The notes under the pieces were generated by a model that did no database searches, was not told the DNA's origin, and saw only the letters and a program-made list of their open reading frames with translations. 64,000 nt of DNA from an uncultured Bacillota bacterium (lineage in GTDB: Bacteria > Bacillota > Clostridia > Oscillospirales > Oscillospiraceae), in the NCBI GenBank assembly GCA_947426945.1, contig CANEFX010000009.1:1-64000 (forward strand), given 5' to 3'. The position numbers and the translations under genes are program-made. This document shows, one piece after another, positions 31,627-42,398 of the stretch (the first letter of the stretch is position 1; each line of letters opens with the position of its first letter).

Positions 31627-32481
31627 ATGAAAAAAATTCTCTCCCTCCCCCCGGTCTCTTTCGTAATGGAAGCGGCGGAGCTCTATATGTCCATCGGGGC
31701 TCCCCGGGCGGCGGCAGCCCTGTCCTACTTTTTGATCCTGACCCTCTTCCCCCTGCTGGTCTGCGTCAACTACTTCATCGGCCTGTTCCACTTGGATCTG
31801 GAAAACCTGCTCCGCTCCCTGGACCAGTTCCTGCCCGCCGGCGCGCTGGCGGTGATGGAGGACTATCTGGGCTACGTGGCGGGCAGTCAGTCCGACGCGC
31901 TGCTGCTGGCCAGCGTCGTCACCATTCTTATCTCCGCCTCGGCAGGGCTGCGCACCCTGCTGGCCACACTGGACAGCCTCCACGGGACGCAAAACGTCCC
32001 CATTGTCCGCCGGGTGACGCTCAGCGTGCTGCTGTCCGCCCTGTTTCTGCTCACCATCTATCTGTCGGTGGTGGTCATCTTCACCGGAGAATGGTTTTTC
32101 TGGCTGCTGGAGGACCGGCTGCCCCGGAACATCGCCGAGCTGATCCCTCTGGAGGCCCTTTCAGGGCTGTGGCGATGGATGCGCTATCTTCTGCTGTTCT
32201 GCTTTGTGCTGCTGCTGGTGCTTGTGGTATACCGGGCGGGCACCCCGCGAAGGGCCATGCGCAGCCGAATGGTGGTGCTCTCCTCCCTGCTGGCCGCTTT
32301 GTCCATCGCCGGGGCCTCGGCGGTGTTCTCCTGGTTTATCGGCATGTCCTCCCGCTACGCACTGGTCTATGGCTCCCTGGCCTCCCTTATCATCCTGCTG
32401 GTGTGGCTCTACCTGTGCGGCTGCATTCTGCTGCTGGGGGCGGTGGTGGGCCGGGTGATAGAGAATCGGCAAAAGGATTGA
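31627..32481 (+). CDS. YihY-family inner membrane protein
   Basis: A 284-residue polytopic protein with about six helices. RAAAALSYFLILTLFPLLV and the C-terminal YGSLASLIILLVWLYLCGCILLLGA are YihY/UPF0761 hallmarks. The family was once called ribonuclease BN; that activity belongs to another protein, and the true role is unclear. AAAGGAGG precedes ATG 31627. A strong hairpin follows its stop. Confidence 0.88.
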   Translation: MKKILSLPPVSFVMEAAELYMSIGAPRAAAALSYFLILTLFPLLVCVNYFIGLFHLDLENLLRSLDQFLPAGALAVMEDYLGYVAGSQSDALLLASVVTILISASAGLRTLLATLDSLHGTQNVPIVRRVTLSVLLSALFLLTIYLSVVVIFTGEWFFWLLEDRLPRNIAELIPLEALSGLWRWMRYLLLFCFVLLLVLVVYRAGTPRRAMRSRMVVLSSLLAALSIAGASAVFSWFIGMSSRYALVYGSLASLIILLVWLYLCGCILLLGAVVGRVIENRQKD

Positions 32482-32512
32482 ACGGGCAGCGCCGGCTTCG
32501 GCGCTGCCCGTT
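32481..32512. terminator. Terminator hairpin after the yihY-like gene
   Basis: AACGGGCAGCGCCG (32481-32494) pairs with 32499-32512 across GCTT and serves the convergent genes on both sides. Confidence 0.75.
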
Positions 32513-32516
32513 CGCT

Positions 32517-32669
32517 TTACTGTTCATCTTTGGATCGTTCCGGTCCTGATTTCGGCTCACCGGAGGAAATATACAACTCCTCACATTCCCGCTGGGCTTC
32601 AATCAGGAGATTCACGGCAGCTTCATTGGCCCGGAACATCTTCAGATACATTTCCTTACAGTCCGGCAT
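32517..32669 (-). CDS. Small helical protein, paralogue of the 10164-10328 product
   Basis: A 50-residue product (MPDCKEMYLKMFRANEAAVN then LLIEAQRECEELYISSG). It aligns by eye with the 54-residue protein at 10164-10328 over the YLxxF helix and the EELY/EELQ turn. The ribosome binding site before ATG 32669 is weak, so the start is uncertain. The frame is open for 60 codons further upstream without recognisable similarity. Function is unknown. Confidence 0.5.
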   Translation of the reverse strand: MPDCKEMYLKMFRANEAAVNLLIEAQRECEELYISSGEPKSGPERSKDEQ

Positions 32670-32800
32670 ACAAACACGACCATTCCAAGAGACAGCCCCG
32701 AACGACTGTCTCTCTGTTTTCTCAACGGTTCTGCCCGCGGAGGGAGTGTACAGGAGGGTGAGGAGTTGGCCTCCCCCCGCAGGGTTTCCCGCCGAGACAA

Positions 32801-32836
32801 ACAAAAGCGGTGCGGAACTCAATAACCCCACACCGC
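32801..32836 (-). terminator. Minus-strand terminator of the antisense transcript
   Basis: On the minus strand GCGGTGTGG pairs with CCGCACCGC (32828-32836 with 32807-32815), followed by TTTTGTTTGT. Confidence 0.65.
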
Positions 32837-32867
32837 ATATTTCAGACACAAACTCTCAAACGGGGAC

Positions 32868-32896
32868 TTGAAAAGAGGGAAGGTTTCCGTTATAAT
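32868..32896 (+). promoter_or_regulatory. Promoter of a short plus-strand RNA
   Basis: TTGAAA (32868-32873), a 17-nt spacer and a consensus TATAAT (32891-32896). Confidence 0.75.
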
Positions 32897-32902
32897 GAGA
32901 GT

Positions 32903-32985
32903 TGGTGCAGCAATGCTGTTGTGTGGGTGCCGTTTTCACCCGTACAGGGACGCGGGGGGGCTTAGACCCCGCGTCCTGCCCTTTT
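32903..32985 (+). ncRNA. Candidate small RNA (about 83 nt)
   Basis: The start is predicted from the promoter at 32868-32896. The end is a GC-rich terminator (GGACGCGGGG 32948-32957 with CCCCGCGTCC 32967-32976, then CTTTT). An internal stem GGGTG/CACCC lies at 32924-32940. The only ATG-led frame begins inside the -10 element and so cannot be translated from this transcript. No Rfam family is recognised. A minus-strand promoter faces it. Confidence 0.6.
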
Positions 32986-33002
32986 ATTTGCCTCTTGCCG
33001 GT

Positions 33003-33031
33003 AGTATAGCATATTTTGTCGAATAACACAA
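33003..33031 (-). promoter_or_regulatory. Promoter of the opposing minus-strand transcript
   Basis: On the minus strand TTGTGT (33026-33031), a 17-nt spacer and TATACT (33003-33008). Transcription would run through the complement of the small RNA to the terminator at 32801-32836, giving an RNA of about 195 nt. It contains at most a 27-codon frame (32856-32939, GTG start, no clear ribosome binding site). Confidence 0.6.
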
Positions 33032-33160
33032 GGAATATTTTCAGGTGCGGGCCGATTTTCGGGCCGCGTTTTCTCTTTCCAAATCCCGTCGATTGTGCTA
33101 CAATTATTATGAGAAAATTTTGCCGCTGCGCAGTGGCGGGGCGGCTGATGGGGTGACGGT

Positions 33161-36100
33161 ATGAATAAAATGATCCGCCAGCTGAACCGCGACATTCTGG
33201 AGGCGTTGGCCGCCCGACATCCGGGGGGCGGGCTGACCAGCCGCCGGACTCTCCAGGACCTGATGAAAGCCCCCGCCTGGACCGACGGTCTGTCCGCCCT
33301 GTTTCCCATCCGGGAGCGGCTGAGCTGCGCCCATATTCTGGAGCTGTGCACTCCTATTCTGTACACGCTGTGCCCCGCCCCTCCGGAGCAAGGCTGGGGG
33401 GCCTTTACCTACCAATACGTCTGCCATCTCATGTTCCCGGAAAACGGCTTTGCCCCCGAGGCAGGCCGCTGCGGGGCCGGGGCGGAGTTCTACCTCACCG
33501 TGCTCCAGATCCTGCTGGACCACGAGCGGTCCGCCCTGCCCTTTGACCCTATGATGGACTTCCGGTTCCTCACCGAGGAGGAGTACGAGGCCTGCGACAA
33601 GGCCCGGGAGTACCGCCGCTTCCTGGCCGCCTGGCGGGGGGAGTTCATCTATGAGTTGATGCGCCTGGGGCTGGAGTTCACCCCCTTCAAGACCCTGAGC
33701 CACATCTCCGGCGTCCACTACATTGCCATGACCGCCGCCCGGGGGCTGGCGGAGGCCGGGGTGGAGGTGGATCTGGCCCTCATCTCCGCCGCCGCCGCCA
33801 CCCACGACGTGGGCAAGTTCGGCTGCCGCCCCGGGGAACGGGTGCCCTATCTCCACTATTACTACACCGACCAGTGGCTGCTGGACCGGAAGATGGAGGA
33901 CATCAGCCACATCGCCTCCAACCACTCCACCTGGGACCTGGAGCTGGAGTCCCTGTCGGTGGAGTCTCTGCTGCTCATCTACGCCGACTTCCGCTCCAAA
34001 TCGGAGCGGGACAGCGAGGGCCGGGAGGTGGTGGTCCTCTATCCCCTGGACCAGTCCTTCCAGGTAATCTTGTCCAAGCTGGACAACGTGGACCGGAAGA
34101 AGCGCCGCCGGTATGAGTTTGTATACGGCAAGCTCCACGACTTTGAGGACTACATGCGCCGCCTGGGGGTGGACGTGGACCTCACCGGCCAGCGGCAGGA
34201 ACCCGTCCCTGTAAAGGACCCCGCCCTCATGGGCCAGGAGGAGACCCTGGACGGGCTGATCCTCCTGTCGGTGGAGCACAACCTGCAGCTGATGCACATG
34301 CTGTCCAACGAGCAGCGCTTCGGCAACATTATTGAGGCCGCCCGCTCCACCAAGAGCTGGCAGCAGCTGCGGGCCTACCTTAACGTCTTTGAGGAGTACT
34401 TTACCTATCTGTCTGTGCGCCAGAAAACCCAGGCTCTGTCCTTCCTTTATGAGCTGCTGATGCACCGTGAGGGCGACATCCGCCGTCAGGCCGGCGCCCT
34501 GATCGGCCAGATCATCGCCCGGTTTCACCTGGTCTACCGCAAGGAGGTGCCCGCCGACGCCCAGAACGACCCGGCAGAGGAGGTCCCTTTCACCCTGTGG
34601 GGCCAGTACCTGGATATGATCATCTTCCCCGACCACAAGACCACCCCCCAGCAGCGCTCCCACATCAGCTACACCCTGAAGCTGGTGGTGGAGTCCATGC
34701 TGAACCACGCCCGGCCGGGGGATATCCCCCGCTTCCTGGACGCCCTGCTGAGCTATTACGACGACCCACAGCACACCGACGACGACACCGCCTTCACCCT
34801 GCTGGACGCCGCCCGCTACCTCCCCCCCAAGCACTACGGGGAGCAGACGAGGGAGAAGCTGGTGAACTTCGCCGCCCACTTTGCGGTGGACCACGAGCTC
34901 CGGCTGACCACCGCCGCCCTCCAGTTTCTGCGGGAGACAGTGCGCAACATCCCCCGCAGCCACCCCCAGATGGCCCGCATCGCCGACCTGACCGAGGGGG
35001 TCCCCTCCAGCCAGCTGACCACTGTCTTTCTCAAGTGCCGCATTCTGCGCCGGGCGGGCCGGGATGTGTCCGCCCTGGAGCGCACCCTCTACCACACCGA
35101 CATCACCAGCGAGGTCTTTCTGGACAACCTGAAGATCGCCACTCCCTGGGTGGTGAAGGTTGCGGGGGTGGAGCTGCTCCGGGACCAGGTGGAGCACGGG
35201 CTGGACGCCCACATCCTCCACATCGCCACCCACTTCTCCAACCTGGTCAAGGTGTCTGAGCGGGTGGTGGTCCGGCACACCGCCGGCTCCGCCCTGGTGC
35301 ACACTCTGTCCCTCCTGCGCAGGGAACAGCGCAACGAGGTGGTGGTAGAGCTGGGCAAGGGGCTGGAGATGGGCCAGTACGAGATCTCCAAATACATCCC
35401 CCAGTATCTGGGAGAGGCCGCCCTCTACCTCCACCCCAGCGAGCTGGACGAGCAGGTGCTGTGGCTTAAGACCCTTCTCGGCTCCCCCAACGACTCCGCC
35501 GTGGCCGGGGCGCTGAACACCATCGCCGTGCTGCTTCAGCATTACCCCGCCTATCAGCAGCGCTTCCCCGAGCGGCGGGAACACTATGAGGACCGCCGGC
35601 AGGAGCTTCTGGGTCTGCTCCTTCAGGGCCTGGCTCACTACCGGGAGACGGTGCGGCAGGAGGCCCTGCTGGTCACCGGCAAGCTGTTGTTTGAAAGCCC
35701 CCTGCTGGGCATGGAGGAGAAAGCCCGTCTGTTCTCTCTCAGCTACCGGAAGCTGCTCTTCCTCACACAGGAGTCCTCCTCCCGGCAGGACGGCCTCACC
35801 TTTTTCTACCGGGCGGCCGCCCTGGCCCACATCAACCGCTTTATCGCTCTGCGGCGGCTGGACCACGGCCCCTTTACCTTTGAAAAGCCCCGGAAGGTAG
35901 CTTTCTTCCCCGGCACCTTCGACCCCTTTACCCTGTCCCACAAGGGCATCGTCCACGCTATCCGGGATCTGGGCTTTGAGGTGTATCTGGCGGTGGACGA
36001 GTTCTCCTGGTCCAAAAAGGCCCAGCCTCACCTGATCCGCCGGCAGATTGTCAACCTGTCCGTCGCCGGGGACTTCCACGTCCACCTCTTCCCCGACGAT

Positions 36101-37957
36101 ATCCCGGTGAACATCGCCAACCCCGCTGACCTGCGGCGGCTCACCGAGCTGTTCCCCCACCAGCAGGTGTATATCGTGGCGGGCAGCGACGTGGTGGCCA
36201 ACGCCTCCTCCTATAAGGCCCAGCCTCAGCCCTTCTCCATCCACCAGATGAACCACGTCATCTTCCGCCGGGCGGGGGAGGCTGAGCTGCCCGCTCCCCT
36301 GCCCATCACCGGGGAGGTTATTCAGCTCCAGCTTCCCCCCCACCTGGAGGATATCAGTTCCACCCGCATCCGGGAAAATGTGGATTTGAACCGGGATATC
36401 TCCAACTTCATCGACCCGGTGATTCAAGACTTTATCTATCAGAACGGCCTGTATCTCCGGGACAGCCAGACCAAACCCATGCTGGGGGCGGGGGATCTGG
36501 AGTTCCGGTGGGTGGGGGAACCCGACCCCCTGCTGCTGGACAGCGTCACTGCCGGCCAGCCCGACCGGGAGGCCGTGCGCTCTGCCATCTCCGATCAGGG
36601 GGACCGGCTGCTGCTGCTGTGCCGGGCGGGCCGGGGGGACATTCTGGGTTACATCGCCTACCGCTCCCTGACCACCTCTCAGCTGTTCACTGCCCTGGGG
36701 GACACCGAGCTGGCCAACCGCATCCGCCTGCGGGCGGCAGGCAAGGCTCTGCTCATCACCGCCCTGGCCGCCGACAGCACAGAGCGTTTTAAGGACTACC
36801 ATCAGCTGCTTCTGTGCGAGCTGCTGGCCCGGGCTCTGGAGGAGGGCTGCGTCTACGGCGTGTTTTGTCCCCACGACGGGAGGCTGGACGACCGGCTGGA
36901 GGACGTCCTTCTCCGCACCGGGTTTCTGGCACGGGAGACGGGCCGCCCCCTCTGGGAAACCGACATGCACGCCCCCGCCACCCTTATTCAGAACCTGGAG
37001 ACCACGATTCAGGAGCCTCTGTCCCAGAATCCCCGAGTGCTGGCCGCCATCCGCCGCAGCCACCAAAGCCTCCAGCGGGCCCTGGCCCGGCTTTACCCCG
37101 GCTCCCTGCTGCTCACCCTGTCCGCCGATATCATCCACCAGCGTCTGCTGGAAAAGATTACCGCCTATAACAGCGTTCCCGCTGTCCCCACCGTCCCGCG
37201 GGTACTGGGTGAAAACATGTGCGTCCCCTACGGCAAGCTTCTCCGGGGCAAAACGGTGCCCAACACCGTAACCAAGACCATCCACACCGACCGGGTCTAC
37301 TCTCCCGACCTGTCGGAGAGCGTGATGGAGCCCTTCCCCTATTACGCCCCCATCTCCAGCCAGATTCGTACCATCAAGTCCTTTGACCGGCCGGTGATCC
37401 TGGTGGACGATCTGATGCACCCGGGCTTCCGCTTCAAGGCCCTGGACCCCATCCTCCGGCAGGAAGGAGTGCCCATCCGCATGGTGCTGGTGGGGGTGCT
37501 GTCGGGCTACGGCAAGGACCTGATGGATGCCTGGGAGCGGCCGGTGGACTCGGTATACTATCTGCCCACCCTGCGCCAGTGGTTCATTGAGGCCACTCTG
37601 TACCCCTTCATCGGAGGCAACACCGTGCGGCGGCCCAGCTCCCCGGTGCCCGGCCTGCTGCCCGGCATCAACCACATCCTGCCCTACGCCAGCCCGGTCT
37701 ATCAGGAGCCCTGCGCCCGAGAGGCGGTGTTCCAGCTGTCCAGGGCCTGCCTGGAGGGGGCGCTGGACGTGATCCGCACCCTGGAGCAGGAGTACCGCAT
37801 CCTCTACGGCCGGAACCTCACCCTGTCCCGCCTGCCCGAGGCGGTCATCCTCCCCCTGTGCCCCGACAAGGGCACCTGCCTGCACTACGACCCCAGCCTG
37901 TCCGCCTCTGTCTATCTGGAGAACGACCTGGAGCAGCTGCTGAGACAGAATCAGTGA
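33161..37957 (+). CDS. Giant fusion: HD, helical repeats, NadD-like, GNAT-like, phosphoribosyltransferase-like
   Basis: A 1598-residue protein, apparently soluble. An HD-type site lies at H186, H215-D216 (ATHDVGKFG), H255 and D276. A long alpha-helical, HEAT-like region spans about 430-880. A nucleotidyltransferase resembling NadD/CoaD starts with FFPGTFDPFTLSH at 916-927 and ends with ISSTRIR at 1065-1071. The usual first histidine of the HxGH motif is T924, and the glycine is S926. A GNAT-like segment lies at about 1110-1270. A terminal domain has the PRPP-loop-like VILVDDLMHPG (1412-1422). ATG 33161 follows GGGGTG. The domains suggest nucleotide or NAD-type chemistry; the reaction is unknown. 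Three genes follow on the same strand. Confidence 0.85.
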   Translation: MNKMIRQLNRDILEALAARHPGGGLTSRRTLQDLMKAPAWTDGLSALFPIRERLSCAHILELCTPILYTLCPAPPEQGWGAFTYQYVCHLMFPENGFAPEAGRCGAGAEFYLTVLQILLDHERSALPFDPMMDFRFLTEEEYEACDKAREYRRFLAAWRGEFIYELMRLGLEFTPFKTLSHISGVHYIAMTAARGLAEAGVEVDLALISAAAATHDVGKFGCRPGERVPYLHYYYTDQWLLDRKMEDISHIASNHSTWDLELESLSVESLLLIYADFRSKSERDSEGREVVVLYPLDQSFQVILSKLDNVDRKKRRRYEFVYGKLHDFEDYMRRLGVDVDLTGQRQEPVPVKDPALMGQEETLDGLILLSVEHNLQLMHMLSNEQRFGNIIEAARSTKSWQQLRAYLNVFEEYFTYLSVRQKTQALSFLYELLMHREGDIRRQAGALIGQIIARFHLVYRKEVPADAQNDPAEEVPFTLWGQYLDMIIFPDHKTTPQQRSHISYTLKLVVESMLNHARPGDIPRFLDALLSYYDDPQHTDDDTAFTLLDAARYLPPKHYGEQTREKLVNFAAHFAVDHELRLTTAALQFLRETVRNIPRSHPQMARIADLTEGVPSSQLTTVFLKCRILRRAGRDVSALERTLYHTDITSEVFLDNLKIATPWVVKVAGVELLRDQVEHGLDAHILHIATHFSNLVKVSERVVVRHTAGSALVHTLSLLRREQRNEVVVELGKGLEMGQYEISKYIPQYLGEAALYLHPSELDEQVLWLKTLLGSPNDSAVAGALNTIAVLLQHYPAYQQRFPERREHYEDRRQELLGLLLQGLAHYRETVRQEALLVTGKLLFESPLLGMEEKARLFSLSYRKLLFLTQESSSRQDGLTFFYRAAALAHINRFIALRRLDHGPFTFEKPRKVAFFPGTFDPFTLSHKGIVHAIRDLGFEVYLAVDEFSWSKKAQPHLIRRQIVNLSVAGDFHVHLFPDDIPVNIANPADLRRLTELFPHQQVYIVAGSDVVANASSYKAQPQPFSIHQMNHVIFRRAGEAELPAPLPITGEVIQLQLPPHLEDISSTRIRENVDLNRDISNFIDPVIQDFIYQNGLYLRDSQTKPMLGAGDLEFRWVGEPDPLLLDSVTAGQPDREAVRSAISDQGDRLLLLCRAGRGDILGYIAYRSLTTSQLFTALGDTELANRIRLRAAGKALLITALAADSTERFKDYHQLLLCELLARALEEGCVYGVFCPHDGRLDDRLEDVLLRTGFLARETGRPLWETDMHAPATLIQNLETTIQEPLSQNPRVLAAIRRSHQSLQRALARLYPGSLLLTLSADIIHQRLLEKITAYNSVPAVPTVPRVLGENMCVPYGKLLRGKTVPNTVTKTIHTDRVYSPDLSESVMEPFPYYAPISSQIRTIKSFDRPVILVDDLMHPGFRFKALDPILRQEGVPIRMVLVGVLSGYGKDLMDAWERPVDSVYYLPTLRQWFIEATLYPFIGGNTVRRPSSPVPGLLPGINHILPYASPVYQEPCAREAVFQLSRACLEGALDVIRTLEQEYRILYGRNLTLSRLPEAVILPLCPDKGTCLHYDPSLSASVYLENDLEQLLRQNQ

Positions 37958-37994
37958 AAGAAAGACAAATTACACAACAGGATGTGATATCATC

Positions 37995-39281
37995 ATGTAT
38001 TATTACAATATCAACGGCGCAACGCTGGTTTCCCTCATTCCGTTGGAGGGCTTCGGGCCCCAGACCGAGCCCGCCAACAGCTGGCGGATGTTCGCCAACC
38101 TTCCCGGGGACCTGGTTCTGGGCCGGGGGTCCTTCAAGGTGACCCACCCCGGCCAGCTGCTGGCCGGACACGGACTGGAGGCCCTGGACGCCTCTCGTCT
38201 GCCCGATTTTGACGACGGCCCCACCAGCGCCATGGTCAACGGAGAGACCGTCCCGCTGGAGCTGGACGAGAATGTGCGGCAGGCTATAGAGGACGGGCGG
38301 CTCACCGCCGTCAACACCGCCCGCCCCGGCTGGGAGGCGCTTCTGCACCGGGCCTGCCACTCAGACAAAAAGCGGGTGAACATCCTGGCCATCGGCGACG
38401 TGGGCTCCACCCTCCTCACCGGGCTGAAGCTGCTGGGCGGGGGCGTGATCTCCTCCATCGGCATCTGCGACCTCAGCGACCAGATCACCGCCCGGTGGGA
38501 ATTTGAGATGGGGCAGATCAGCCTGCCCTGGAGCTACGGCGCCTTCCCCGAGGTGGAGGTGGTCTCTCCGGAGCACCTCTTTGACTGCGACATGTTCGTC
38601 TTTGTGGCCTCCAGAGGCATCCCTCCGGTGGGCTCCCAGGTGAAGGACGTGCGCATGGCTCAGTTCGAGGCCAACGCCGGCATCGTGAAGCATTACGCCA
38701 AAATGGCTCGGGAGAAAGGGTTCCAGGGGCTGTGGTGCGCCGTGTCCGACCCGGTGGACCCCCTGGCCAAGACCGCCTATCTGGAGAGCAACAAGGACGA
38801 GAACGGAAACTGGGACGGAAAGGGCCTACGGCCCGAACAGGTCCAGGGCTTCGGTCTGGGTGTGATGAATGCCCGGGCGGCCTACTTCGCCAAGCGGGAC
38901 CCCAGGCTGGCCTCCTTCCTGACGGAGGGGCGGTCCTACGGCCCCCACGGTACAGGGCTGTTTATCGCCAACTCCATCGACCACTACGACGAGGAGTTGT
39001 CTCAGGAGCTGACCCGGCTCACTGTCACCGCCAACCTGAAAATGCGGGAGATCGGCTTTAAGCCCTACGTGGCCCCCGCTCTGTCCTCCGGGGCCCTGTC
39101 CCTGCTGCTCACCCTCCGGGGGGAGTGGCACTGCGGCTCTGTGTTCCTGGACGGGGTCTATATGGGTGTGAAAAACCGCTATACCCCCGCTGGGATCGAG
39201 ACCGAGCTGCTGCCCCGTATCCCCGACCAGCTCTTCGACCACATCCGGGAGGCGGCGGAGCACCTTAAGAGTATTATTTAA
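37995..39281 (+). CDS. Rossmann-fold protein, lactate/malate dehydrogenase-like
   Basis: A 428-residue protein. An N-terminal region of about 120 residues is unassigned. It is followed by a dinucleotide-binding start (NILAIGDVGSTLLTGLKLLG) and the acidic strand end ICDLSD. Segments MFVFVASRGIPP and CAVSDPVDPLAK sit where lactate/malate dehydrogenases and family-4 glycosidases have substrate loops. It begins 37 nt after the fusion gene and is probably cotranscribed. Specific activity cannot be assigned. Confidence 0.65.
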   Translation: MYYYNINGATLVSLIPLEGFGPQTEPANSWRMFANLPGDLVLGRGSFKVTHPGQLLAGHGLEALDASRLPDFDDGPTSAMVNGETVPLELDENVRQAIEDGRLTAVNTARPGWEALLHRACHSDKKRVNILAIGDVGSTLLTGLKLLGGGVISSIGICDLSDQITARWEFEMGQISLPWSYGAFPEVEVVSPEHLFDCDMFVFVASRGIPPVGSQVKDVRMAQFEANAGIVKHYAKMAREKGFQGLWCAVSDPVDPLAKTAYLESNKDENGNWDGKGLRPEQVQGFGLGVMNARAAYFAKRDPRLASFLTEGRSYGPHGTGLFIANSIDHYDEELSQELTRLTVTANLKMREIGFKPYVAPALSSGALSLLLTLRGEWHCGSVFLDGVYMGVKNRYTPAGIETELLPRIPDQLFDHIREAAEHLKSII

Positions 39282-39293
39282 GAAGGTGGAACC

Positions 39294-40352
39294 ATGTCCA
39301 TTACCCTGATCCATCCTGCCCCCGACTCTGGCTGGGCGGGGCAGCGGCTGGACGGCGTGCTGCGGCAGGCCCTGGCCGGCCGGGAGGTGCACACGGTACG
39401 GACGGCGCAGGAGCTGTCCGGCCTGGAAAACCGGCGTATTCTGCTGGCCCTGCCCCTGGGAGACACGGGGGTCAGCCTGGAGCACATGCGCATGCTGGCC
39501 CGGCTGCGGAAGGAGCCCGAGCTGCTCTCCGGCTGCACCGGCGGGCTCATTGTAGACGGGGCGGGGGAGCTGTATACCAAATCCTCCGCCGCCGAAGCCG
39601 CTCTGGCCCTGAATATGGCCGGGTGCGCCCTGGTGGGCCGGCCCCTGGTGGAGGGCACCGGGTCGCTGGCCAACTTTGCCGTCCAGGCCAAAAACCTGGG
39701 CGGCAGCCTGATGGAGGCCTACCGCCACGCCGCCCGGGAGCTGGCGGACCAAGTGGAGGGCTTCTCATTTCCCAGGAAGGCACGGCCGGAGATTCTGGTC
39801 CTCCACGCCTCCAGCCACCACACCTCCAATACCATGGATCTGTGGGCCGGGGCGCGGGAGAAGCTGGAGGGGCGGTGCTCTATCCATGAGATCGGCCTGC
39901 GCAACGGCACCCTGTCCGACTGCTCCGGCTGTCCCTACACCATGTGCCTCCACTTCGGGGAACAGGGGGGGTGCTTCTACGGCGGCGTGATGCAGGATGA
40001 GGTTTACCCCGCTGTCCGGGCGGCAGACGCCCTGGTGCTGCTGTGTCCAAACTATAACGACGCCCTGTCCGCCAACCTCACAGCCTTTATCAACCGTCTC
40101 ACCGCCCTCTTCCGTCAGACCCGGTTCTACGACAAGGCAGTGTTTTCCATTGTGGTCTCGGGCTACTCCGGAGGGGACATGGTGGCCCGGCAGGCGGTGG
40201 CCGCCATGAATATGAACAAGTCCTTCTACCTTCCCCCCCGCTTCGCTCTCATCGAGACGGCCAACTCCCCCGGACAGGCTCTGGCCCTCCCCGGCATTCA
40301 GGCGCGGCTGGAGGGATTCGCCCGAAATATCCTGGATACCCTGTGTCTCTGA
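39294..40352 (+). CDS. Flavodoxin-fold NAD(P)H-dependent FMN reductase-like protein
   Basis: A 352-residue protein. The C-terminal half (about 165-350) matches iron-sulfur flavoprotein/FMN reductases: a phosphate loop near LHASSHHTSNT, a cysteine cluster DCSGCPYTMCLHFGEQGGC, and PNYNDALSANLTAFINRL. The N-terminal half includes a Rossmann-like stretch ending in VEGTGSLANF. ATG 39294 follows AGAAGGTGG. It lies 12 nt after the dehydrogenase-like gene and overlaps the beginning of the next frame, indicating an operon and perhaps an electron-transfer partner. Confidence 0.75.
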   Translation: MSITLIHPAPDSGWAGQRLDGVLRQALAGREVHTVRTAQELSGLENRRILLALPLGDTGVSLEHMRMLARLRKEPELLSGCTGGLIVDGAGELYTKSSAAEAALALNMAGCALVGRPLVEGTGSLANFAVQAKNLGGSLMEAYRHAARELADQVEGFSFPRKARPEILVLHASSHHTSNTMDLWAGAREKLEGRCSIHEIGLRNGTLSDCSGCPYTMCLHFGEQGGCFYGGVMQDEVYPAVRAADALVLLCPNYNDALSANLTAFINRLTALFRQTRFYDKAVFSIVVSGYSGGDMVARQAVAAMNMNKSFYLPPRFALIETANSPGQALALPGIQARLEGFARNILDTLCL

Positions 40353-40378
40353 ACGACCCGGAAAGGCGGATGATAACG

Positions 40379-41587
40379 ATGCGCGACTCTTTCACCATAT
40401 TGATTTATCCCCACCAGCGGCTCCGGCATCTCCAGCCCACGGTGGACGGACTGTCCGACGCCGTTATGCGGCTGTATGGGCTGGATATGTCCGCCCTGCG
40501 CTGGACGGAGTGCCGGGAGGGGTCGCTCGCCCTCTTTGAGGGGGGCGTCTGTCCCGAGATGGCCGCCCGTATTCCCTCCGCCAAGCTGGACTGCGCCGCC
40601 CTGCTGCTCTACCTCCGGGAGGGAGGCAGCTGGGGCTACCAGCTGTGCTTCCGGGGCTCAGTGGAGGACTCCTTCGAGGCGGCGCCCGGGGCAGCGCCCG
40701 ACCCTGTACCGCCGGAGCAGCACGCCGCCCGGCTGGTCCGGCGGTTCAAGGCCGGCCGGGAACAGCTTCTGCCCTGGCTGACGGGGGAGGAGGCCGCTCA
40801 AACGGAGCTTCCGGATGGCTTTCTCGGCGAGCTCGCCCCCTGGGCCCGGGAGGCCCTCTCCGCCGGTAAGCTGACTCCCGCCCCCGCCGTGCCCGTCCCG
40901 GATGTCTCGTCCCCGGAGGAAAACGCCCCCGACCTGGAGCGGGGACAGCGCCCGCCGGAGCAAGAGCCGGGCCCGGAGGCCTGCCTTTCCTTCCTGTGTG
41001 AGGCCAGGGTCCTTCGCAGGAGCTGGCCCTTTCCCCTGTCCCTGCTGTATTCGTTCTTCCCCCAGAAGCGCCCCGCTCCGGAGGCGGTCCCCTTCCAGGG
41101 CTGGACCGCCCGGGAGCTGGAGAAGGCTCTGAATGGGTTTTACACCAGAAAGCTGGAGCGGCTGGAGCTGAAGTTCACCCTGAATGGGGCGGGGACCTAT
41201 GTGCGCCGCCTGAAAAAGACGGTGTATCACCCCTTCCGGCTCACGCTGGAGCTGATTTGGGATCGGGGGCGGTGCGTGTGCCTGCTTCTGGACGACCAGC
41301 AGCCCACCGTCTACCGGCTGGTCGCCGACCGAAAGACCTATATGAACGTGGATATCAAGGATTTGAAAAAGACCGTATTTTGCGGCCAGACTGTGGACGA
41401 ATATACGGTTTTCTCCAAAAGGGACCTCCAGCCCCTCCGCAGGGAGCTTCCCCTCCTCCTGTCCCGTCTGGACCGGCGGGACGGGGTGCTCAGCGCCACC
41501 GCCCGGATGGGGGTTTGGAGCTGCGCCGGCCTCAATTTCAGCCGGGAGCAGTATCAGCAATTTCTGGACGCCTGGACTCTGCCTTAA
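40379..41587 (+). CDS. Hypothetical protein, last gene of the fusion cluster
   Basis: A 402-residue protein of no recognised family. The middle (about 170-215) is rich in Pro, Glu and Ala and probably disordered. The C-terminal 180 residues alternate strands with basic and aromatic positions (LNGAGTYVRRLKKTVYHPFR), which looks globular. ATG 40379 is favoured (AAAGG 12 nt upstream); ATG 40370 and GTG 40343 are in frame. It ends at a strong terminator. Confidence 0.65.
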   Translation: MRDSFTILIYPHQRLRHLQPTVDGLSDAVMRLYGLDMSALRWTECREGSLALFEGGVCPEMAARIPSAKLDCAALLLYLREGGSWGYQLCFRGSVEDSFEAAPGAAPDPVPPEQHAARLVRRFKAGREQLLPWLTGEEAAQTELPDGFLGELAPWAREALSAGKLTPAPAVPVPDVSSPEENAPDLERGQRPPEQEPGPEACLSFLCEARVLRRSWPFPLSLLYSFFPQKRPAPEAVPFQGWTARELEKALNGFYTRKLERLELKFTLNGAGTYVRRLKKTVYHPFRLTLELIWDRGRCVCLLLDDQQPTVYRLVADRKTYMNVDIKDLKKTVFCGQTVDEYTVFSKRDLQPLRRELPLLLSRLDRRDGVLSATARMGVWSCAGLNFSREQYQQFLDAWTLP

Positions 41588-41625
41588 AAAAACTGCCTGA
41601 AGCCGGCGGCCTCAGGCAGTTTCTT
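41588..41625. terminator. Bidirectional terminator after the fusion cluster
   Basis: AAACTGCCTGA (41590-41600) pairs with TCAGGCAGTTT (41612-41622). Flanking A and T runs serve the cluster and the convergent ABC permease. Confidence 0.85.
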
Positions 41626-42398
41626 TACTCCAAATTCAGCTTGTTCTCCAGAATCCAGCTGGTCAAAGCCAGGAATATCAGGGCGGGGATGACCATGGCG
41701 GCAGAGACGCTGAGCATAGCGCCGTGGACATTGCCGCTGACCCAATCTATAAACTGTTCAACGGGATTCCACAAAAATATCCTGGCATAGAAGTTGGCCA
41801 GCAGGATATACAGTCCAATAAAAGCGGCCACGCTGACCAGCTTCCGGTGGTGGGAAAACAGATGCCCGATGGACATGGCCAGGTACATCAGCGAGATAGA
41901 TATAACAATAGCTGAGACGATCATCAGGCATATCTCCGAAAACACCAGGATCACGTCCGGATGCTTTATCAACCCCCGAATCACGTTCAGCCAGGGGAGG
42001 TATATCATCTCGGACCAGTCCACAGGCGCCATGATAAGAGGACACAGGACGGCCACCATGCCGCAGCCTATCCAGGTAACCGTGCCGCAGATCAGCCTGG
42101 CGGCCACCAGCTGCCAGGAACGGACGGGCAGAGTATGCATCAGGTATCCCTCGCTGCCCAGCAGGCCTCTGGCAAACCGCTGGATGACAAAGATAACCGC
42201 AATTACGAACATGGCCGCAAGGACCACTGAAAAAGCTATCGCCAGCAGACTGGAGGCGTTTTCTCCCATCACAGGGATGCGGCGGCCTGTGTTCAGTGTA
42301 AATCGGTTGACCAGGGCCAGCACCAGAGCTGCACCCCAGATCAGGGAAAACTGCTTCCACATGGCCCGGAAATCGTATTTCAGCAATTTTAAGAGCAT
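41625..42398 (-). CDS. ABC-2 permease of a YtrA-type operon
   Basis: A 257-residue protein with about six membrane helices (LIWGAALVLALVNRF; FVIAVIFVIQRFARGLLG; final ILLANFYARIFLW and MVIPALIFLALTSWIL). Its ATG shares a base with the ATPase stop (TGATG). It works with the ATPase and GntR regulator as a cell-envelope stress or antibiotic-export module. Confidence 0.85.
   Translation of the reverse strand: MLLKLLKYDFRAMWKQFSLIWGAALVLALVNRFTLNTGRRIPVMGENASSLLAIAFSVVLAAMFVIAVIFVIQRFARGLLGSEGYLMHTLPVRSWQLVAARLICGTVTWIGCGMVAVLCPLIMAPVDWSEMIYLPWLNVIRGLIKHPDVILVFSEICLMIVSAIVISISLMYLAMSIGHLFSHHRKLVSVAAFIGLYILLANFYARIFLWNPVEQFIDWVSGNVHGAMLSVSAAMVIPALIFLALTSWILENKLNLE

Follow-up and report, generated by a model that had tools for sequence, protein, structure and literature searches.

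The DNA analyzed here is a stretch of 64,000 nucleotides (the window) from an uncultured bacterium of the Oscillospiraceae, whose genome comprises 2.4 Mb in 52 contigs. On the forward strand, positions 33161..37957 hold an open reading frame that translates into 1598 residues, exactly where an earlier sequence-only reading had placed it, and homologues of this fusion protein were found in the genus, family, class and phylum of the host. The fusion gene heads an operon of three genes. It is followed on the same strand, after a gap of 37 bases, by a gene for a 428-residue dehydrogenase-like protein of the lactate dehydrogenase (LDH) family (37995..39281), as judged by an Ldh_1_N match below the cut-off and by PDB matches, and, after another 12 bases, by a gene for a 352-residue flavodoxin-family protein resembling FMN reductases (39294..40352, forward strand), which matches PF03358 with an E-value of 1.3e-17 and contains a set of four Cys residues.

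Downstream of the operon lies a 414-residue reading frame (40343-41587) for which neither Pfam nor NCBIfam gave a match. It was considered as a cassette member and left out, because it was found in four close loci only (L002, L003, L004 and L027). On the reverse strand, a frame of 1592 codons (33107-37885) spans nearly the whole fusion gene; a Pfam search with it gave no match at E ≤ 1, and since only 11 of 59 relatives have an open antisense frame longer than 1000 codons, we regard it as a side effect of codons rich in G+C. Riboswitch control of the operon was likewise rejected, since an Rfam search of window positions 32300-42000 gave no match at E ≤ 0.5. Rfam searches of seven of the 28 regions that we extracted from distant genomes yielded four tRNAs and one fluoride riboswitch, the latter at the far end of L131.

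The distribution of the fusion was assessed in tool-drawn samples of genomes. At E ≤ 1e-30, 59 of the 61 genus members sampled gave a match (31 of 31 among the good genomes), as did 15 of 150 genomes in the family, 32 of 391 in the class and 8 of 398 in the phylum. In the sample of the taxonomic order, 16 of 295 matched at E ≤ 1e-3, but only three of these matches are long, the other 13 falling in the NadD region. Among 108 loci with a strong match, 89 contain an open frame of at least 1560 residues, while the shorter frames mostly run into contig or locus ends and two (L069 and L046) look broken. From these 89 loci we chose 60 representatives with less than 85% identity, and 111 positions are invariant across them. 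This number of invariant positions excludes a chance origin, and the frame is a real, deeply conserved protein. The counts given below for Pfam families refer to a loose limit of E ≤ 1 and either to 31 of the 60 representatives (for the phosphoribosyltransferase (PRTase)-like, GNAT-like and C-terminal stretches) or to a set of 32 rows made up solely of the window protein and related loci.

Named carriers of the fusion include Flintibacter muris, Pseudoflavonifractor, Clostridium sporosphaeroides, Faecalispora jeddahensis, [Clostridium] symbiosum, Clostridium fessum and Acetoanaerobium noterae. In a quick tree, with long branches that leave its deep part unsure, the rows of C. fessum and of Lachnospiraceae are nested with high support among those of Oscillospiraceae, which suggests that the gene was transferred between families. 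Beyond the phylum, our searches comprised plasmid and phage collections and six short peptide patterns. A phage origin was rejected, as the phage collection gave one match, covering 12% and located in the NadD part, and none to the whole protein. A plasmid origin was rejected as well, given that the single match in the plasmid collection is a 2.63-Mb record of A. noterae. This record (NZ_CP154629.1, L190) is circular and labelled as a plasmid, is chromosome-like in size and has the same three genes.

The sequence-only reading had described five parts in a single chain, namely an HD domain, helical repeats and NadD-like, GNAT-like and PRTase-like domains. The long chain and its HD and NadD-like parts stand, while neither the GNAT domain nor PRTase activity is established. 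It had also named no described protein with such a domain order, and we found no description in the open-licence literature that was searched on this architecture, as judged by titles and the beginnings of abstracts.

The HD phosphohydrolase-like module covers residues 179-276 (33695..33988). In the window protein, Pfam HD (PF01966) scores 19.5 bits over these residues, under the cut-off of 22, and the family matches 21 of the 32 aligned members. The pattern of H...HD...H...D is nonetheless complete: H181, H215, D216, H255 and D276 are identical in all 60 representatives, as is H232. The earlier choice of H215-D216, H255 and D276 as parts of the metal site is thus retained. H186, which had been named with them, is conserved in 53 of 60 and is not a fixed ligand, so that the first predicted metal ligand is H181, and not H186. 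A search of the PDB with the family profile revealed only YfbR-like (E 0.038) and HD-GYP (E 0.062) structures. Between this module and the transferase lies a region of helical HEAT-like repeats, with inferred limits at about residues 340-900 (34178..35860). Here, PF02985 matches 12 and PF13646 matches 9 of the 32 aligned members, which supports the repeats proposed earlier, although HEAT models gave no match to the window protein itself. A PDB profile search with residues 1-912 also returned no match.

The second firmly identified module is the NadD/CoaD-like nucleotidyltransferase at residues 911-1099 (35891..36457), which contains the motifs GTFDPFTLSH, DEFSWSKK and ISSTRIR. PF01467 exceeds its cut-off in the window protein (residues 915-1072, 22.6 bits vs 21), and hhalign aligns the module end to end with ordinary NadD over 177 columns (98.4% probability, E 5.8e-15, with a small NadD profile built from five proteins), leaving no need to revise the earlier assignment. 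PDB matches of the profile begin at E 5.5e-5 and are of the NMNAT and CoaD types. Position 924, the first His of the HxGH motif, is Thr in 36 and Ser in 24 of the 60 representatives, while GTFDP is kept and H927, as well as S1066, S1067, I1070 and R1071 of the SSxxIR motif, are found in all 60. The site had previously been called altered at HxGH. The first His is indeed absent, but the term overstates the change, as CoaD enzymes carry Thr at this place and the genome's own CoaD reads GSFDPVTLGH. Judged from these residues, the transferase site looks competent and is nearer to CoaD at position 924 alone. The module further presents invariants of its own (D946, W950, K952, R960, N984, R1078 and D1079), and the stretch aligned with the SYT substrate motif of NadD reads differently.

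The remaining C-terminal stretches were assigned from sequence alone. The GNAT-like linker module (about residues 1105-1272, limits inferred, 36473..36976) is weak: PF00583 matches 3 of 31 members with a best E of 0.026, the pattern [QR]xxGx[GA] occurs in 11 of 60 representatives, and a PDB profile search with the region returned no match. hhalign sets it in the correct place without significance, using a small profile built from 13 of 16 GNAT loci. The PRTase-like stretch (about residues 1340-1470, 37178..37570), with NTVTK at 1368-1372 and VDDLMHPG at 1415-1422, is better supported. PF00156 matches 16 of the 31 members, the best at 6.5e-5, with all four of the scores inspected below the cut-off and with matches that, in the four members whose limits were inspected, fall in the latter half of the domain, while the window protein itself gave no PF00156 match. 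In hhalign, the stretch reached 55.6% with a score of 37.1, compared with at most 20.5 for 11 controls, using small profiles for which three or four of the eight PRTase loci of the own genome were usable. D1416 and G1422 are conserved in 59 of 60 representatives and D1417 in 56, and NTxT(K/R) at 1368-1372 is nearly invariant. However, none of the 60 has the classical PRPP motif with its final [TS]-G-x-[TS], and a PDB search found nothing significant, with HPRT at an E of only 0.67. The PRTase likeness noted earlier is kept as a partly supported resemblance that lacks this motif. A conserved tail, recognized in the alignment of 31 members, closes the chain at residues 1500-1595 (37658..37945).

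The earlier reading had linked the fusion to NAD biosynthesis, and a bifunctional or backup salvage enzyme could be envisaged, in which NMN or NaMN would come from the PRTase-like part and be converted to NAD or NaAD by the NadD-like part. The best NCBIfam families for the fusion are indeed NadD equivalogs (from E 4.1e-9), NadD is the best profile match, and the partner genes belong to dehydrogenase and flavin reductase families. These equivalog scores nevertheless fall far short of the cut-offs (36.2 vs 150 and 28.1 vs 112.45), and the fusion is under every NCBIfam cut-off for NadD and CoaD. The host genome, moreover, has an ordinary NadD-YqeK, RibF and CoaD, each over its NCBIfam cut-off, so the fusion is to be regarded as an extra enzyme. 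The differing SYT stretch speaks against NAD salvage as well, as does the likeness of the PRTase-like part to PF00156 without a PRPP motif; PF00156 differs in fold class from the PRTases that serve NAD synthesis. Taken together, this weakens the link to NAD biosynthesis, and we regard a salvage enzyme as rather improbable. As the cell has an ordinary NadD-YqeK, the substrate is probably not NaMN, and the fusion is probably not the NAD enzyme of this genome.

The strongest functional evidence for the fusion is provided by its neighbour genes. In a survey of 68 loci, 56 had room for the dehydrogenase gene, and 55 of these have it no more than 2.5 kb downstream and in the same orientation; for the flavoprotein gene, with a limit of 4.5 kb downstream, the count is 49 of 54. 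In the single locus that lacks the dehydrogenase at this place (L038), both partner genes are located upstream in the opposite direction, while the flavoprotein gene lies further off in L013 and was not found within the locus in L016, L033 and L037. Of the 28 distant regions, 25 have a called flavoprotein gene and 24 a called dehydrogenase gene, with an overlap of 4 bases between the two genes in 11 of the 24 regions that have both; in L148, the dehydrogenase was missed by the gene caller, and tblastn puts it at the same place in L070. The three distant regions without both partners are two second copies of the fusion (L134 and L150) and L146, in the genome of which (G983) the two genes are found together on another contig. 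The fusion and the dehydrogenase are separated in L126 and L127 by a gene resembling ammonium transporters and a glutamate-synthase-like set, whose later genes were named from their starting letters. Of the 391 sampled genomes of the class, 31 yielded the dehydrogenase, and each of these is among the 32 fusion carriers; the only carrier without it (G467) is a genome that is 84% complete.

Both partners were aligned after dropping L153 and L133 as oddly cut, leaving 22 of 23 references for the dehydrogenase and 25 of 26 for the flavoprotein. A PDB search with the dehydrogenase profile found L-lactate and malate dehydrogenases (70 distinct sequences at E ≤ 0.1, the best at 6.5e-9), with matches that mostly cover the NAD-binding half. 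Invariant in the 22 sequences are GDVG, R220 and N227 (spaced as R-x6-N), M291, R294 and H318. We take R220, R294 and H318 to be the catalytic Arg, Arg and His of LDH, with M291 presumably occupying the place of the catalytic Asp. In the flavoprotein, C210, C213, C218 and C227 are invariant in all 25 sequences, and its family profile gave nothing in the PDB at E ≤ 1e-3.

The strict tie to two redox proteins would also suit a sensor or scaffold. In such a reading, the fusion would resemble NadR in sensing nucleotides, which its modules would bind, and the helical repeats would control how active the dehydrogenase and the flavoprotein are. The long helical repeat region and the degenerate state of the PRTase-like and GNAT-like parts are in line with this. 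A pure sensor, however, would have no need of HD ligands and a transferase core that are invariant in 60 of 60 sequences, and the Pfam search found no DNA-binding domain. We thus consider a sensor unlikely, while giving it some weight.

Several observations concern the wider gene context. The second copies in L134 (G445) and L150 (G487), which have no redox partners and form one clade, adjoin a gene for an APH-family small-molecule kinase. Among the 40 loci longer than 17 kb, seven (L040, L045, L047, L060, L062, L065 and L069) have a glutamate dehydrogenase gene no more than several kb from the cassette, and so do 5 of the 28 distant regions (L130, L133, L147, L148 and L151), which amounts to about five separate branches of the tree, when two loci absent from the tree are counted with their relatives; the window itself has no such gene. 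From genome size, we would roughly expect well under one such neighbourhood. These neighbours brought hydroxyglutarate fermentation to mind, which we mention only as an aside, with the flanking genes giving no evidence of a dehydratase.

In L146 (3282-9701), the fusion homologue stands beside three TerD genes, TelA, YceG and a divergent C-C_Bond_Lyase gene. Such a neighbourhood would suit membership of the fusion in a Ter-type stress or anti-phage defence system. Yet Ter genes adjoin the fusion in only 1 of the 28 distant regions, and in a set of 80 hand-picked genomes, TerD is not commoner with the cassette (5 of 37) than without it (7 of 43), and we rejected the link. The PADLOC models matched none of the three operon proteins at E ≤ 0.1, whole-protein likeness is missing from the phage collection, and carriage by nearly every genome of the genus also argues against defence. 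We hold a role of this kind to be very improbable.

We tentatively propose, at somewhat less than an even chance, that the fusion is a single-chain enzyme that both makes and hydrolyses a nucleotide-linked, dinucleotide-like metabolite. It is read as an enzyme that makes and unmakes its product because the HD and transferase sites are both intact. From the modules, their invariant sites, the operon and the co-occurrence of its genes, we infer the following reactions. The NadD-like module would use an NTP to attach AMP, or a different nucleotidyl group, to a phosphorylated substrate. This substrate, ribose-phosphate-like in kind, would most likely be bound by the PRTase-like region, for which PRPP may have ceased to be a substrate, and the helical repeats would hold the modules together. 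The HD module, by analogy with the YqeK domain for NadD, would remove wrong or used product, and the dehydrogenase and flavoprotein would oxidise, reduce or use the product of the fusion. The APH-family kinase beside the second copies is a fitting neighbour for an enzyme of a phosphorylated substrate. Several points speak against making and hydrolysing: nothing but their fusion suggests that the HD and transferase modules act on one molecule; the PRPP motif is absent throughout, the GNAT-like part is weak and the dehydrogenase has Met for Asp; and the flavoprotein profile found no PDB match at E ≤ 1e-3 and the second copies lack the partners.

A rival explanation is that the operon serves to mend pyridine or flavin nucleotides that have been damaged, with the HD module cleaving wrong dinucleotides, the transferase remaking them and the partners reoxidising abnormal reduced forms. 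The redox partner genes accord with repair, and a precedent for proofreading is given by NadD-YqeK (PMC9426524). Such damage would, however, be universal, while the fusion is patchy outside the genus, in the family and the class alike, and the genome retains its own NadD-YqeK. Repair therefore appears distinctly improbable. A bolder version of the making and hydrolysing enzyme, which we likewise see as a long shot, is that the three genes make up an entire pathway, hitherto undescribed, around a dinucleotide redox cofactor that is itself new. Starting from an NTP and a phosphate that bears a base or an acid, the fusion would build and proofread the cofactor; the flavoprotein would charge it, and the LDH-like enzyme would be its dedicated user. 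This would explain why the dehydrogenase is seen in no sampled genome of the class that lacks the fusion.

If the making and hydrolysing enzyme is the correct reading, a nucleotide pathway of their own is maintained by a whole anaerobe genus and by scattered relatives, one that is named by no curated model used here and was not found in the open-licence literature searched. The strict link of the fusion to its partners turns an orphan protein of 1600 residues into a testable three-gene pathway, and the principle of making and proofreading in NadD-YqeK would be extended to another substrate.

Each protein of the operon can be set beside known systems. The flavoprotein shares the PF03358 domain and a Cys cluster with NADPH-dependent FMN reductases and iron-sulfur flavoproteins, but differs in an extra N-terminal domain of about 160 residues and in the Cys spacing of its own putative cluster. 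The dehydrogenase resembles L-lactate and malate dehydrogenases in the NAD-binding half, the Arg-x6-Asn, the second Arg and the GPHG histidine, and departs from them in about 100 extra N-terminal residues, in the Met replacing the catalytic Asp and in scores under the family cut-offs. For the fusion, the likeness to type I PRTases (PF00156) comprises the strand-loop-helix around VDD and the next strand, whereas the T/S-G-x-T of the PRPP loop is absent in all 60 and the N-terminal half of the fold is not detected. Citrate lyase ligase CitC, to our understanding, likewise joins GNAT-type and NadD-type modules in one chain, but in another order and with all other modules different, and the GNAT-like part of the fusion is weak. 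With NadD and CoaD (PF01467), the fusion shares the fold family, GTFDP, the invariant His, SSxxIR and an alignment from end to end, while the first His gives way to Thr or Ser, much as in CoaD, and the invariant DEFSWSK and N984 are its own. NadD-YqeK (NF005519; L087 in the own genome) likewise combines an HD hydrolase and a NadD-type adenylyltransferase in one chain, and YqeK fused to NadD is reported to proofread NadD products in NAD synthesis (PMC9426524). There, however, NadD is N-terminal and HD follows directly in a chain of 406 residues in this genome (about 340-410 in the family), whereas in the fusion, the HD module (179-276) is N-terminal, repeats separate it from the NadD-like module (911-1099), more modules follow up to 1598 residues and, unlike NadD-YqeK, the gene is accompanied by two redox partners.
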